Assembly (NCBI RefSeq): GCF_005502745.1
Contig: NZ_SCNL01000001.1
Location: 1 to 64,000 of the forward strand
DNA: 64,000 nucleotides
Reading direction: 5' to 3'
DNA from: Sphingomonas sp. 3P27F8
GTDB lineage: Bacteria > Pseudomonadota > Alphaproteobacteria > Sphingomonadales > Sphingomonadaceae
Part shown: piece by piece, positions 59,919-64,000 of the stretch
How positions within the stretch are numbered: the stretch's first letter is position 1
How the letters are laid out: each line of letters opens with the position of its first letter
Notes under the pieces: model-generated
Seen by the model: only the letters and a program-made list of their open reading frames with translations
Databases searched by the model: none
What the model was told of the DNA's origin: nothing
Position numbers and translations under genes: made by a program

Positions 59919-60824
59919 TTAGAGGCCTGCGTCTGTTCGGAGCGTTTCGATGCGTTCGCGCGAAACGGTCTCGACGATGTCGCGAAGGTCGCGGACCGAC
60001 TGTGAGAGGGCGCAGAGGTCGTCATTGCCGATCTCATAGCTCGCCGAATAACGCGCCTCGACATAGGCGCGCTTCAGAAGTTCAAAGCGGCGGCGGTCGA
60101 CCCGGGTCGCACGCGGCCATGCCTCGATCAGGCGGGGTTCGCTATCCTCAGCGAGCGAGCGCAGGAATTTGATGTTGTGCGAGCGCGGAAAATACAGGGT
60201 GCGAACAAGCAGGAAGCAAATATAGGCCCGCTCGGTCGCTTGATGGAGCAGGAAAGCCGCATCTTTCAATTCGCCCTCCTGAAGTGCGAATGCTGCCAGT
60301 TTGATCCCGCTGTCGATCTTGGCGAGCCAGTCTTGGAAGTAGGTGGAGGCCATCTCATAAGCATCGGCGGCCGTCAGTGGCTGCGGGGTGGCAAGTGCGC
60401 TCCCGGGCAATTCGTAGAGAACGATCCCGTCGCGGGCGATATCAACCCAGAAATATTCGCCCCGGCTTAGCGCTTGGTTCACCTCCTCCAGCGTGTGGAC
60501 GATGATATTCACGGGTCGCGCGATTGCGGTGTCGCGCAGGATCTTGTCTTCGGCAACGTACCAGTAATCGGCGATATCAGTGAGATCGGGATGGCTGACG
60601 ATGACCAGCAGATCATAGTCGGACTGGTAGCCATTTTCGGGTTCATCAACCCAATCGTCCCGCGCATAGCTGCCGAACAGGACGACTTTGAGGATGCTCC
60701 CGTTTTTCTTCCAGGGCTGGGTCGCGCGCGCCGTCGCCTCGGCAAACTCGCCCATCAGCAATTGCTTCACCCGATCCAGTTCGCCTTGCTGGACCGAGGG
60801 CAGATGATCAACATCAGAGCGCAC
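59919..60824 (-). CDS. Nucleotidyltransferase-HEPN fusion protein
   Basis: A 301-residue protein. Residues 40-75 carry the minimal nucleotidyltransferase motif FGSYARDDWVD...SDYDLLVIV, with the GS and paired Asp metal residues. A HEPN-type helical domain fills about 160-290. Its most conserved segment reads RTLYFPRSHNIKFLRSL, in which Arg and His are separated by seven residues rather than the usual four to six. The two domains are fused, as in known MNT-HEPN proteins. Start GTG 60824 fits family N-termini (VRSDVDHLPSVQQGELDRV). Possibly a toxin or regulatory protein; divergent from a Fic gene. Confidence 0.82.
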   Translation of the reverse strand: MRSDVDHLPSVQQGELDRVKQLLMGEFAEATARATQPWKKNGSILKVVLFGSYARDDWVDEPENGYQSDYDLLVIVSHPDLTDIADYWYVAEDKILRDTAIARPVNIIVHTLEEVNQALSRGEYFWVDIARDGIVLYELPGSALATPQPLTAADAYEMASTYFQDWLAKIDSGIKLAAFALQEGELKDAAFLLHQATERAYICFLLVRTLYFPRSHNIKFLRSLAEDSEPRLIEAWPRATRVDRRRFELLKRAYVEARYSASYEIGNDDLCALSQSVRDLRDIVETVSRERIETLRTDAGL

Positions 60825-60958
60825 GGCGACGATTCTCGCGAGAGACCAGGCGCTTGGCAAGCCTTGACCGCGTGCATGGACACGTCGATGGTCCCGCCTC
60901 ACGCACGAGCACAGCCTCGTAGATATCGTACACGCCTGCGCATCGCCCCGTCGTCTCC

Positions 60959-61023
60959 CTTATTTAAGCCCGCTTACCTTAGCTTGTTTGCTAATTAAGC
61001 CAAGTGCCAGTTGCTTAAATAAG
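60959..61023. promoter_or_regulatory. Perfect 11-bp inverted repeat in the HEPN-Fic divergent region
   Basis: CTTATTTAAGC at 60959-60969 is the exact reverse complement of GCTTAAATAAG at 61013-61023, with a 43-base centre. A further TTAAGC half-site is at 60995-61000. The stretch is AT-rich in a GC-rich genome and sits 25 bases before the Fic start, so an operator and divergent promoters are likely. Which protein binds is unknown. Confidence 0.7.
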
Positions 61024-61047
61024 AGGTTTTCCGCATATTGGGTCCGC

Positions 61048-62229
61048 ATGGTCGATCCTGAACCGAATCTGCGGCTGGGCCGCTTCGTCGAGACCCCCGT
61101 TGCGGGCGAGGTTGTGCGAGCCTTCGTGCCACCACCGCTTCCACCAGCGCCACCCATCGACGTGCTGGGCCTCCTCGACCGTCTCAGTCTGGCCGAGCGC
61201 GCCTTGGGGCGCCTCGACGGTATCACCATGCTGCTGCCGCGCCAGGAACTCTTCCTCTACATGTACGTGCGAAAGGAAGCGGTGCTGTCCTCTCAGATCG
61301 AGGGCACGCAATCGACCTTGTCGGACCTGCTCCGCTTCGAAACCGAGGCGCAGGCTGGCCAGCCGATCGACGATATCCGCGAGGTCTCGAACTATGTCGA
61401 CGCCATGATGTACGGGCTCGATCGGCTGGAAGAGCTGCCGCTGTCGCTCCGTCTCATCCGAGAGATGCACGAACGCTTGCTGCAAAGCGGCCGGGGCGGC
61501 ACCAAGAGCCCCGGCGAATTCCGCCGTTCGCAGAATTGGATCGGCGGCACGCGCCCAGGCAACGCGCTGTTTGTGCCACCGCCGATTACGGAACTCGATG
61601 GCTGCCTGGATGCTCTCGAACGCTTCATGCACGAGAGTGAATCTCGCCTGCCCGCACTGATCAAGGCGGGCCTCCTCCACGTCCAGTTCGAGACAATTCA
61701 CCCGTTCCTTGATGGCAATGGCCGCATCGGCCGTCTGCTGGTGACGCTGTACCTTTGCGTCAACGGCGTCCTGCGCAAGCCGCTGCTCTATCTCAGCCTC
61801 TATCTGAAAACCCACCGAGCCGACTATTACAGGCTGCTGCAGGAGGTGCGGGAGCATGGAGCATGGGAGGCGTGGCTTGATTTCTTTCTCGCCGGCGTTG
61901 CCGACACTGCCAACCAGGCCTTCGATGCGGCCACGCGCATCGTCGAGCTCTTCAAGGAGGACCGGGAAAACGTCACTGCGAACAGCGATCGCGCCGGGTC
62001 AGCGCTGCGTGTTCACGACCTTTTCCAACAGAATCCCTTTCTCAGCGCCAATCAGTTGGTTCAGCGGACCGGCCTATCCGCCCCGACCGTCAATGCTGTC
62101 CTTGCTGATCTTGAACGGCTGGGTGTGGTCGAAGAGATCACGGGCAAAAAGCGAAGCCGCGTCTTCGGCTATCGAAGGTATTTGGCTATATTGAGCGAGG
62201 GCACCGCGCCCCTCCCGGCCGTCGGCTGA
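61048..62229 (+). CDS. Fic-domain protein (AMPylase-type) with winged helix
   Basis: A 393-residue Fic protein. An N-terminal inhibitory helix is predicted from S81-S-Q-I-E85-G86, matching the (S/T)xxxE(G/N) motif, so the enzyme is likely auto-inhibited (class II). The Fic core has HPFLDGNGRIGRL at 218-230, the complete catalytic loop. The C-terminus (about 325-390) is a winged helix (FLSANQLVQRTGLSAPTVNAVL). The usual activity is transfer of AMP from ATP to a protein. Start ATG 61048 is chosen because the 20 residues before it are unlike family members. Divergent from the MNT-HEPN gene. Confidence 0.9.
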   Translation: MVDPEPNLRLGRFVETPVAGEVVRAFVPPPLPPAPPIDVLGLLDRLSLAERALGRLDGITMLLPRQELFLYMYVRKEAVLSSQIEGTQSTLSDLLRFETEAQAGQPIDDIREVSNYVDAMMYGLDRLEELPLSLRLIREMHERLLQSGRGGTKSPGEFRRSQNWIGGTRPGNALFVPPPITELDGCLDALERFMHESESRLPALIKAGLLHVQFETIHPFLDGNGRIGRLLVTLYLCVNGVLRKPLLYLSLYLKTHRADYYRLLQEVREHGAWEAWLDFFLAGVADTANQAFDAATRIVELFKEDRENVTANSDRAGSALRVHDLFQQNPFLSANQLVQRTGLSAPTVNAVLADLERLGVVEEITGKKRSRVFGYRRYLAILSEGTAPLPAVG

Positions 62230-62330: not shown

Positions 62331-63602
62331 ATGGGTGTGATACGCGGCGATTCTAGCAAAGACCGTGTTGGAACAATCTCGCTGGATTACCATGCCACGA
62401 CGCCGGTCGCGCCTGAGGTCGTCGCCGCGATGATCCCATTCTTCTCGGACACCTCTTGGAACGCCCATTCTGCACATGCGGGCGGCGCGATCGCTGCGAG
62501 CGCCGTCGCCGTCGCCCGCGCGCAGGTGGCAGACCTGGTTGGAAGTGCTCCAAGCGAGATCATCTTCACCTCTGGTGCCACCGAAGCGAATAATATCGCC
62601 ATTCTTGGTACGGCAGCCGCCGCGACCCATTCCGGGTCTATTCGGCGACGCATCCTCACCTCGACAATCGAACACAAATGCGTTCTCGAAGCGGCTGGCC
62701 ACCTGTCGAGTGTTGGCTTCGTACACGAACTGATACCCGTAACCGCAGAAGGGCTTATCGACCTCGCCGTCCTGAGCGAAATGCTCGATGAGGAAGTCCT
62801 CCTCGTCAGCGTGATGGCGGCGAGCAACGAAATCGGCGTCATCCAGCCTCTGGCTCAAATTGGCGAACTAGCTGGGGATTATGGAGCAATTTTCCATGTC
62901 GATGCCGCGCAGGCGGTGGGACGCGTGCCGTTTGACGTATTTGCCCTCCGCTGCGACCTCGCGAGTTTCTCTGGCCACAAAATGTACGGCCCCAATGGGA
63001 TCGGGGCGCTCTTTGTGTCATCCGCAGCCGAGCTAAAGCCTCGACCGATCATGTTTGGAGGGGGACAGGAGCAAGGACTCCGACCGGGTACGCTGGCCGT
63101 CCCTTTGATCGTCGGCTTTGGTAAAGCTGCAGCGATCGCGGCGGAACGGATGGAGGCAGACGCCAGGCATCTTACCGAAATCGCTCATCTTTTTGTGAGC
63201 AATCTCAGATTGCTGGGGATCGCGGCGCGCCTCAATGGTGCTCCTTCACCCCGTTTGCCAGGCAGTCTGAACCTGCTGATTGACGGCGTCGACGCTGACG
63301 ATGTCGTTCTGCGCCTTGGCGATGATCTGCATCTGTCGACCGGATCGGCCTGTCAATCGGGCGAGCTTCAAGGATCCCATGTGTTGCGGGCGCTCGGTCT
63401 GTCGGATCAAGACGTTGCTTCTTCGTTCCGCATATGTTTTGGGCGTGAACATACCGAATCAGACGCGATTGTTGCCGCCAAACTGCTTGCAGAAGCAGTA
63501 GCCTCATGCGAGAAGCCCACTGGAGGAGGCGTCCAGCAGCGGGGTAGCGACGGTGGAAAGGTTCACGGCGAAAGATTTTCGCCCGCAATTTGCGGGACAT
63601 GA
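62331..63602 (+). CDS. Cysteine desulfurase, IscS/DndA-like
   Basis: A 423-residue PLP enzyme that takes sulfur from cysteine. His115 (TIEHK), Asp191 and Gln194 (HVDAAQAVG), PLP-Lys217 (FSGHKMYGP) and the persulfide Cys341 (STGSACQSGE) are all present, the last in the short active-site loop of the IscS group. In phosphorothioation systems such an enzyme (DndA or SspA) supplies sulfur to DNA. The next gene, a DUF4007 protein, begins within its last 50 bases. No iron-sulfur assembly genes are adjacent, which favours the DNA-modification role over housekeeping IscS. AGAGGGC lies before ATG 62331. Confidence 0.88.
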   Translation: MGVIRGDSSKDRVGTISLDYHATTPVAPEVVAAMIPFFSDTSWNAHSAHAGGAIAASAVAVARAQVADLVGSAPSEIIFTSGATEANNIAILGTAAAATHSGSIRRRILTSTIEHKCVLEAAGHLSSVGFVHELIPVTAEGLIDLAVLSEMLDEEVLLVSVMAASNEIGVIQPLAQIGELAGDYGAIFHVDAAQAVGRVPFDVFALRCDLASFSGHKMYGPNGIGALFVSSAAELKPRPIMFGGGQEQGLRPGTLAVPLIVGFGKAAAIAAERMEADARHLTEIAHLFVSNLRLLGIAARLNGAPSPRLPGSLNLLIDGVDADDVVLRLGDDLHLSTGSACQSGELQGSHVLRALGLSDQDVASSFRICFGREHTESDAIVAAKLLAEAVASCEKPTGGGVQQRGSDGGKVHGERFSPAICGT

Positions 63603-64000
63603 AACCTTTCCTCTCAGAACGCTTTGGCTAAAAAAGGCGTTCGAGGCCGTAAAAGACGGTGCCGATCGTAATATCTTCGTTGCCGCTGACGCAATCGTTC
63701 GATTTGGTGTGGGTAAAAACATGGCGCAAGCAATGCGTCATTGGAGCGTGGCGACTGGTATTATTGAGGATGTGGAGACGCAATGCCTCCCATCACCGCT
63801 CGGATCAGCAATCTTTGCTAATGACGGCGGTCTCGATCCCTATCTCGAGCACCCGGCCACGTTATGGCTGATCCATTTGGCGCTCGCCGGATCGCCTGAA
63901 ATGTCCACAACATGGTATTGGGCATTCAACGTCTTCGGGAGCCTCGCATTCGACCGCGAGGCACTGACGCGCGGTCTGCTTGATATTGCCCAAGAACGCG
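63553..64000 (+). CDS. DUF4007 family protein, partial (cut by window end)
   Basis: The first 149 residues of a protein that continues past the window. It starts at GTG 63553, inside the desulfurase gene, and overlaps it by 50 bases. The segments FAGHETFPLRTLWLKK, VRFGVGKNMAQAMRHW, DPYLEHPATLWLIHLAL and TTWYWAFNVF form the DUF4007 pattern. This family is found beside cysteine desulfurase and PAPS-reductase-like genes of DNA phosphorothioation loci. The role is not established; it may act in modification or in sensing. Confidence 0.8.
   Translation, partial: MERFTAKDFRPQFAGHETFPLRTLWLKKAFEAVKDGADRNIFVAADAIVRFGVGKNMAQAMRHWSVATGIIEDVETQCLPSPLGSAIFANDGGLDPYLEHPATLWLIHLALAGSPEMSTTWYWAFNVFGSLAFDREALTRGLLDIAQER

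Follow-up and report, generated by a model that had tools for sequence, protein, structure and literature searches.

A DUF262-SIR2 gene pair linked to Ssp-type DNA-phosphorothioation genes in Sphingomonas sp. 3P27F8 and distant bacteria

Introduction

Which weapons accompany a DNA-phosphorothioation locus that begins with a cysteine desulfurase gene overlapping a DUF4007 gene? The question is raised by the right-hand end of the window, i.e. the whole stretch of 64,000 nucleotides analysed here from Sphingomonas sp. 3P27F8. The window is the first 64 kb of contig NZ_SCNL01000001.1, which is 521,813 bases long, so that the right side can be read beyond the edge. There, a ten-gene locus was found that combines an SspABCD module, a PbeABCD-type cassette and a DUF262-SIR2 gene pair. 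The module is known, as is the cassette, which has so far been described with Dnd genes. The pair is conserved and looks like an apparently undescribed type of effector linked to phosphorothioate (PT) marks. In the open-licence literature of PubMed Central, supplementary files aside, no description joining SspBCD and SIR2 was found; a description elsewhere is possible. Overall, the locus probably marks host DNA with sulfur and couples the mark to two distinct weapons.

The ten-gene locus

All ten genes lie on the plus strand between positions 62331 and 75516, and neighbours overlap by at most 50 bases or leave a gap of at most 6. Contig positions continue the window numbering; segment L002 covers contig positions 60000-79999 (window coordinate = L002 coordinate + 59999). 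The gene order is sspA-sspB(DUF4007)-sspC-sspD-pbeA-B-C-D-DUF262-SIR2, and the identities of the parts are well supported (lengths in amino acids, aa):

62331-63602, plus strand: sspA, cysteine desulfurase, 423 aa (PADLOC SspA 1.2e-127, DndA 3.3e-124; Pfam Aminotran_5)
63553-64476, plus strand: sspB, DUF4007 protein, 307 aa, GTG start; window part 63553-64000, L002:3554-4477 (PADLOC SspB 8.1e-103; PF13182 3.3e-82)
64473-67802, plus strand: sspC, 1109 aa (PADLOC SspC, 1106.9 bits)
67799-68635, plus strand: sspD, similar to 3'-phosphoadenosine-5'-phosphosulfate (PAPS) reductases, 278 aa (PADLOC SspD 8.1e-132)
68623-70806, plus strand: pbeA, 727 aa (PADLOC PbeA 7.5e-187)
70813-71040, plus strand: open reading frame (ORF) of 75 aa in the place of pbeB, assigned by position only
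71044-73122, plus strand: pbeC, 692 aa (PADLOC PbeC 6.9e-46)
73122-73577, plus strand: pbeD, 151 aa, predicted model with DndE fold
73580-74656, plus strand: DUF262 gene, 358 aa (Pfam PF03235 3.0e-15)
74656-75516, plus strand: SIR2 gene, 286 aa (Pfam SIR2_2 4.5e-28)

The first four genes make up an SspABCD module, the SspA desulfurase, the DUF4007 protein SspB, the SspC ATPase and the PAPS-reductase-like SspD occurring together (PADLOC, Pfam). DUF4007 is the SspB of Ssp systems (PMC12839542), and loci are known in which sspBCD has sspA either next to it or at another place (PMC8092258); a desulfurase with DUF4007 beside it is a known start of sspABCD. The statement of the first-pass annotation, made from the window, that no DUF4007-led arrangement is well described was therefore wrong. 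Its other observations on these genes hold. The 50-base overlap between the desulfurase frame and the DUF4007 frame (GTG at 63553) is present, and the desulfurase translation shows the motifs SGHKMYGP and STGSACQSGE, the contexts of what are presumably the lysine that binds pyridoxal phosphate and the catalytic cysteine. The DUF4007 gene, which runs off the window edge, is complete on the contig with its stop at 64476, and the PAPS-reductase-like gene expected past the edge exists as sspD. Since the next 13 kb encode SspC, SspD, PbeA-D, DUF262 and SIR2, the suspected start of a phosphorothioation locus was recognized correctly; the composition of the locus (SspABCD + PbeABCD + DUF262-SIR2) is a variant one.

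Iron-sulfur assembly or ordinary metabolism is rejected as the role of the locus, since no isc/suf or metabolic genes are found among the nine scanned operon proteins (PADLOC, Pfam), in agreement with the initial view that the desulfurase does not sit with iron-sulfur assembly genes. The SspD protein (P0004) has no DndC match at 0.001 in PADLOC, and the SspC and SspD profiles score above BrxC and BrxP for the same proteins. Neither PglZ nor BrxL of Type 4 BREX is among the PADLOC matches listed for the nine operon proteins and the Fic protein encoded upstream (for protein P0006, the best 25 of 59).

Association of the DUF262-SIR2 pair with Ssp genes

Does the pair belong with the Ssp genes? 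The contigs of GTDB species were scanned with a four-sequence DUF262 profile, and the best 80 of 110 relatives were taken as loci and scored with profiles of all locus parts, giving 29 Ssp-linked loci and 51 others. A SIR2 gene directly follows DUF262 in 22 of the 80, and all 22 are among the 29 Ssp-linked loci (21 of them contain SspC or SspD; for L023 the link is SspFGH). In the 51 surveyed loci without Ssp genes, some of them short, SIR2 never stands directly after DUF262. The pair thus recurs specifically with Ssp genes.

Twenty-four loci were laid out. Both genes share a strand, and the last DUF262 codon lies -34 to +16 bases from the first possible SIR2 start. The order sspB-C-D-DUF262-SIR2 is found in 15 of the 24, mainly in Bacteroidota, and for ten of these 15 the stretch contains no Pbe or SspFGH match. 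In the short Bacteroidota loci, the flanks were searched using profiles for Ssp, Pbe, DUF262 and SIR2 rather than the whole PADLOC library, and the L038 stretch ends soon after SIR2. In other settings the pair precedes sspA-D (L024), follows Pbe genes (the locus described here and L022), is convergent with Pbe and Ssp genes (L027) or stands beside sspFGH (L013 and L023, whose DUF262 and SIR2 proteins are identical).

The pair is also found on plasmids. A plasmid tblastn search with the DUF262 protein gave 6 records, among them two from Sinorhizobium and two from Sphingopyxis, and three of the six were read. Two of these three are Ssp-linked: one from Sinorhizobium americanum, with the pair beside sspFGH, and a Hymenobacter plasmid with the pair straight after sspBCD. 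Rhizobium p7 has methyltransferase and helicase genes instead. Of the ten plasmid records matching SIR2, the best three (two Sinorhizobium, one Hymenobacter; 44-56% identity) fit the clade of the paired SIR2 proteins, and both of those read (one Sinorhizobium, Hymenobacter) are Ssp-linked; the remaining seven are at 24-30% identity. Among 66 SIR2 loci on viral contigs the best identity is 30%, and none is close to the clade. Overall, the pair is uncommon but wide-ranging, occurring in Pseudomonadota, Bacteroidota and Candidatus Binatota.

These data bear on a first alternative, in which SspABCD-PbeABCD is a working restriction system and the pair an independent defence passenger in a defence island. 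Such a passenger is unlikely. It would have to account for an Ssp linkage of 22/22 among SIR2-paired DUF262 loci against 0/51 SIR2 genes in loci without Ssp genes, and for ten of the 24 loci in which, judged by the Pbe and SspFGH profiles, nothing but the pair follows SspBCD. On its side stand L012, in which SspABCD-PbeABCD occurs without the pair, and the likely defence genes that the element also carries (a SoFic-type Fic protein and a nucleotidyltransferase-HEPN protein).

Several observations on the surveyed loci are recorded here in their own right. In a close relative (L016:14572-15437) the SIR2 gene is split between two frames near codon 38, either an assembly error or decay. In L028:7045-9910, sspD and the pair are separated by three genes without annotation, of 382, 206 and 363 aa, the third of which matches AAA weakly. 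Of 95 surveyed loci, 12, all Ssp-linked, encode a GHKL-type protein about 820 aa long (L036:12842-15301, L039, L040, L041, L043, L045, L046, L047, L048, L095, L014 and L238). Its HATPase_c_3 match falls slightly short of the Pfam cut-off, and the one copy scanned has no PADLOC match. The protein is a candidate for a further Ssp component.

Inheritance of the pair

A tree was built of 77 DUF262 sequences, leaving out L026 (the same stretch as part of L016), L023, L016 and rows of fewer than 220 residues. All 23 SIR2-paired rows fall into one clade of 24 (support 99/100), L025 being the exception. The sister clade holds six Ssp-linked sequences without SIR2 (joint clade support 91/94), and a seventh of this kind, L095, lies elsewhere in the tree on a long branch. 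In the sister clade, the DUF262 protein of L046 (L046:9860-11248) is fused to a C-terminal HNH nuclease, while a DndB-like gene stands about 300 bases after DUF262 in L036 and L037 (by Pfam in the former, by eye in the latter) and one gene later in L034 (by eye). Compared with SIR2 in the main clade, it follows that the partner differs within one Ssp-linked sensor family.

Other DUF262 neighbours were seen as well. DUF262 is followed by a protein kinase beside sspBCD in L029:7816-9964 (Pfam Pkinase; nearest to mad6 of MADS) and in L095:10001-12007 (by eye). In Mycobacterium (L052:1504-3479), an Ssp-linked DUF262 gene precedes a gene for a 254-aa protein without Pfam match, then sspABCD.

Distance matrices were correlated over 23 loci, two of which lack SspB, leaving 21 for the SspB comparisons. 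Shared descent alone yields positive correlations, so that the contrast between the values is the informative part. The correlation is 0.898 between DUF262 and SIR2 and 0.90-0.93 within SspB/C/D, against 0.63-0.67 for DUF262 versus SspD/C/B and 0.55-0.59 for SIR2 versus SspB/C/D. The contrast indicates two modules, each inherited as a unit and joined less tightly to each other; the DUF262-SIR2 pair is such a unit. That its distances track the Ssp distances less than each other is what an independent passenger would also lead one to expect.

The DUF262 and SIR2 proteins

What could the pair do? The DUF262 protein of the locus (P0008, 358 aa) matches GmrSD_N as its only Pfam domain, and its C-terminus is helical in the predicted model. 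The combination of DUF262 and DUF1524 that defines SspE is absent, no DUF1524/HNH nuclease being found on this protein by Pfam. The model (26 sequences) has a mean predicted local distance difference test (pLDDT) score of 87. Its best structural match, BrxU, spans almost the full length (Z 8.8-8.9, 290-297 residues, root-mean-square deviation (rmsd) 11.5-11.7); the aligned part of BrxU is residues 1-422, which leaves the BrxU nuclease end uncovered. The N-terminal part of SspE follows (Z 8.2-8.6, 141-143 residues, rmsd 3.4-3.6), then ParB-type CTPases (Z about 7-8) and DndI (Z 5.7, rmsd 9.9, 272 residues). This re-alignment is to be read with caution, given that a PDB sequence search with the DUF262 profile gave weak matches only (YheS, E 0.079; the DUF262 protein 7p9k, E 0.19) and given the Foldseek result discussed below.

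Two motifs, P-x-[Y/W]-Q-R and DGQQR, are kept in all 26 rows, which include four from the sister clade; in the protein of the locus and its close relatives, Y is replaced by W. In SspE, Y30 and Q31 are needed for the PT response and D96GQQR100 forms the nucleoside triphosphate (NTP) pocket (PMC9646914). The E. coli protein uses Y63 and R133 (PMC13251355), and DndI relies on Y25, part of a patch that includes P23 and Q26 (PMC11662687). P24, W26 and Q27 of the Sphingomonas protein match Y30/Q31 of SspE and P23/Y25/Q26 of DndI by motif, not by alignment.

The SIR2 protein (P0009) consists of SIR2 only, with 286 aa against the 478 positions of the ThsA profile and no other Pfam domain. The best PDB match of the SIR2 profile is a 'USG protein' (6e-29); ThsA (3.3e-28), KomC (5e-24) and DSR2 H171A (3e-22) are matched as well. 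N122 and H164 are invariant in 22 SIR2 rows and align with TTNYD and HGD of ThsA, whose Asn and His are presumably required for NADase activity. The protein is predicted to be an NAD-destroying enzyme.

The PbeABCD cassette and Ssp-Pbe hybrids

The second proposed weapon lies between sspD and the pair. PbeA carries a helicase motif together with the HxK...GSxNxT nuclease motif, as befits a helicase with HKD nuclease; its PLDc_2 match is below the Pfam cut-off. PbeC has a CIC motif and is a CxC-type ABC (ATP-binding cassette) ATPase with a DndE cognate. The CxC Zn-hook is the mark of this ATPase clade, and PbeD is its DndE cognate (Rakesh et al. 2024, PMC10853773). The pbeD product has no family match. 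The best of five predicted models, from four sequences, has a mean pLDDT of 72 (the other four are poor, 54 to 35), and its best solved matches are three DndE structures (Z 8.8, 8.2 and 7.7; rmsd 2.8-3.8 over 98-109 residues), the next-best row being at Z 5.0. The 75-aa ORF between pbeA and pbeC, likewise without family match, has relatives in the same place. From the DndE-like model and the statement of Rakesh et al., the cassette is taken as complete, with pbeB assigned by position alone.

PbeABCD was named as a Dnd partner (PMC6459918), and one paper that mentions both SspBCD and PbeABCD treats them as separate systems. The companions here are SspABCD genes and not dndCDEA. Within the same taxonomic order, 6 of 296 genomes (own genome included) have a PbeA relative at E <= 1e-40, and SspC and SspD are present in five of these six neighbourhoods. 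Three of the five contain relatives of PbeA, B, C and D, and two only diverged PbeA and PbeC. A Sphingomonadaceae plasmid (L012) has SspABCD followed by PbeABCD. The combination was also approached from SspD. Its family profile discriminates poorly at E <= 0.001, where it matches 47 of 385 genomes along with 7 of 14 controls, so that only the nine genomes above 360 bits were followed; these contain full-length SspD, and a partial match of 153 bits was left out. They comprise the own genome and eight other alphaproteobacterial loci. Pbe genes occur in two of the eight: L234 encodes all four proteins PbeA-D, and L236, truncated at a contig end, encodes PbeA, PbeB and part of PbeC. L235 and L236 are short contigs on which effectors may be missed. 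SspABCD-PbeABCD hybrids thus recur, which indicates that PbeABCD is not tied to Dnd marking. As a separate observation, sspABCD in L232, L233, L237 and L239 is accompanied by a weak PbeA-like match and by a protein about 590-660 aa long whose N-terminus looks GHKL-like (by eye); L232, L237 and L239 also have a PLD-like protein of about 300-317 aa (by eye).

Proposed mechanism

How might the parts work together? The preferred and rather probable reading is that SspABCD marks the DNA, PbeABCD forms one line of attack, and the DUF262 protein is an NTPase that would control a separate SIR2 NADase, with SIR2 replacing the nuclease of SspE. By analogy with known systems, SspA would take sulfur from cysteine, and SspD, SspB and SspC would put it into the DNA backbone at a short motif. 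The PbeC/PbeD pair of ABC ATPase and DndE would scan the DNA, and the helicase-nuclease PbeA would act on invading, unmarked DNA; the Pbe literature disagrees on whether DNA is cut. The DUF262 protein would be an NTPase that responds to DNA or to PT and resembles the front half of SspE and DndI, the nuclease half being absent, and the separate SIR2 protein, perhaps physically coupled to it, would fill the nuclease's place. Upon triggering, NAD+ would be destroyed, and phage growth would stop because the infected cell is arrested or dies. A link between DUF262 and SIR2 is suggested by gene order, by the correlated distances and by the exchange of partners.

More tentatively, PT marks may control this NAD+-destroying enzyme. 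The pair would then add a third class to the Ssp effectors: a DUF262 PT reader, detached from its nuclease, would work with a separately encoded SIR2 NADase and cause abortive infection in which no DNA is cut, in this element on top of an SspABCD-PbeABCD hybrid. Such a switch could have either polarity. SspE needs PT to act (PMC9646914), while DndI is restrained by PT (PMC11662687), and the anatomy of the locus is compatible with a PT-licensed as well as a PT-restrained device.

A related alternative is that the pair is a back-up suicide device, which fires once the PT system has been blocked or removed by a phage. For the edges of Dnd loci, back-up suicide effectors were proposed (Rakesh et al. 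2024, PMC10853773), DndI is toxic without PT (PMC11662687), and the lack of orphan pairs in the survey would follow. The same lack is, however, expected if PT is required for activation, and in ten loci the pair is the only effector recognized by the profiles used. A back-up device is rather improbable.

Evidence against the proposed mechanism

Several results count against the preferred reading. As regards distribution, the absence of SIR2 from the 51 loci without Ssp genes is only partly covered: 4 loci offer less than 1 kb downstream of DUF262, and just 29 extend 5 kb or more to either side of it. Among the shortest loci, many carry a convergent GHKL-type gene after SIR2, so that they may not be 'minimal'. 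The pair is found in none of the eight other alphaproteobacterial SspD loci. The clade SIR2 occurs in 1 of 398 Pseudomonadota genomes, the own one (394 bits; next best 132), and in 1 of 395 genomes of a Bacteroidota class, the centre genome (420 bits; next best 116). L025 (L025:9950-11040) is a clade DUF262 without an Ssp or SIR2 gene within the 10 kb fetched per side; its DUF262 matches are split over two overlapping frames. Finally, the correlations and the clade reflect shared descent, and the 22 loci are not independent events.

As regards the sensor, Foldseek with the DUF262 model gave no match at E <= 0.001, and the Z values for BrxU, SspE and ParB are about equal, and values of this size can arise from a shared arrangement alone. 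Of the 51 DUF262 loci that lack Ssp genes, 42 have P-x-Y-Q-R and 50 have DGQQR; motif patterns of this kind contributed to the selection of the set. As proof of PT sensing, the aromatic-Q-R motif was thus rejected as diagnostic: being general in DUF262, it permits PT sensing without demonstrating it. The nearest named sequence family in PADLOC is NsnA of Menshen, in 26 of 26 rows (3.1e-27 for the protein of the locus), and SspE is not among the PADLOC families matching these rows.

Some of these results fit a third alternative, in which the pair senses another cue, such as base-modified phage DNA as GmrSD/BrxU do, or phage nucleotides, with Ssp as an independent layer. BrxU as the top structural match over nearly the whole protein (Z 8.9, 290 residues, rmsd 11.5), the NsnA similarity and the generality of the motif would all fit. 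This alternative leaves the Ssp linkage across Pseudomonadota, Bacteroidota and Candidatus Binatota unexplained and appears doubtful.

Genomic setting

The first-pass annotation had placed the desulfurase as cargo of an integrative and conjugative element, which agrees with the surroundings as far as these genes go. The left side holds minus-strand type IV secretion system genes for a coupling protein, TrbL, a TrbE/VirB4-like protein and a VirB11-type ATPase. To the right, also on the minus strand, a relaxase gene (DUF3363 + MobA/VirD2) is found, with an IS66 transposase gene farther right. The position between them fits cargo of a conjugative element. Two likely defence genes lie to the left of sspA:

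60988-62229, plus strand: SoFic-type Fic protein, directly upstream of sspA (PADLOC SoFic 1.3e-124)
59919-60902, minus strand: single protein of 327 aa with nucleotidyltransferase and HEPN domains, likely toxin-antitoxin or defence

Relation to known systems

The locus shares with SspABCD-SspE the marking module and a DUF262 NTPase with DGQQR as candidate reader; whereas SspE has DUF1524/HNH, here none is found on the DUF262 protein and a separate SIR2 follows. SspABCD-SspFGH has the same marking module, and the Sinorhizobium americanum pair adjoins sspFGH; here PbeABCD takes that place, with no sspF, sspG or sspH in L002 at 1e-12 (profiles from L013 proteins, PADLOC SspF/G/H). With DndCDEA-PbeABCD, which has the CxC ABC ATPase, the pbeA-B-C-D order, the CxC motif and the DndE-fold PbeD are common, but the cassette is here paired with SspABCD. 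IscS-DndBCDE-DndI also has a DUF262 protein beside PT genes, with the motif-level match to P23/Y25/Q26 and the model match at Z 5.7; DndI differs in being part of a Dnd system and in bringing an HNH nuclease of its own.

Among SIR2 systems, Thoeris ThsA and KomC share the SIR2 domain with the protein of the locus, whose Asn and His align to ThsA, and KomC is also a small SIR2-only chain. Thoeris combines ThsA, of SIR2 + SLOG architecture, with the TIR protein ThsB; there is no SLOG domain here, and the partner is a DUF262 protein. Menshen consists of NsnA (DUF262), NsnB and NsnC. The DUF262 protein of the locus is NsnA-like, while NsnB and NsnC are not among the matches listed for the scanned operon proteins (P0006, best 25 of 59). 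The gene make-up of Menshen is touched on in PMC10952713.

Significance

In the literature covered here, the PT-linked effectors SspE, SspFGH, DndFGH, DndI and PbeABCD are said to damage DNA or block its replication. If a PT-linked SIR2 is true, the sulfur mark would be a general self-signal for varied weapons, one of them acting on cell metabolism. The short five-gene strings, with three marking genes, one sensor and one effector, make this reading directly testable.

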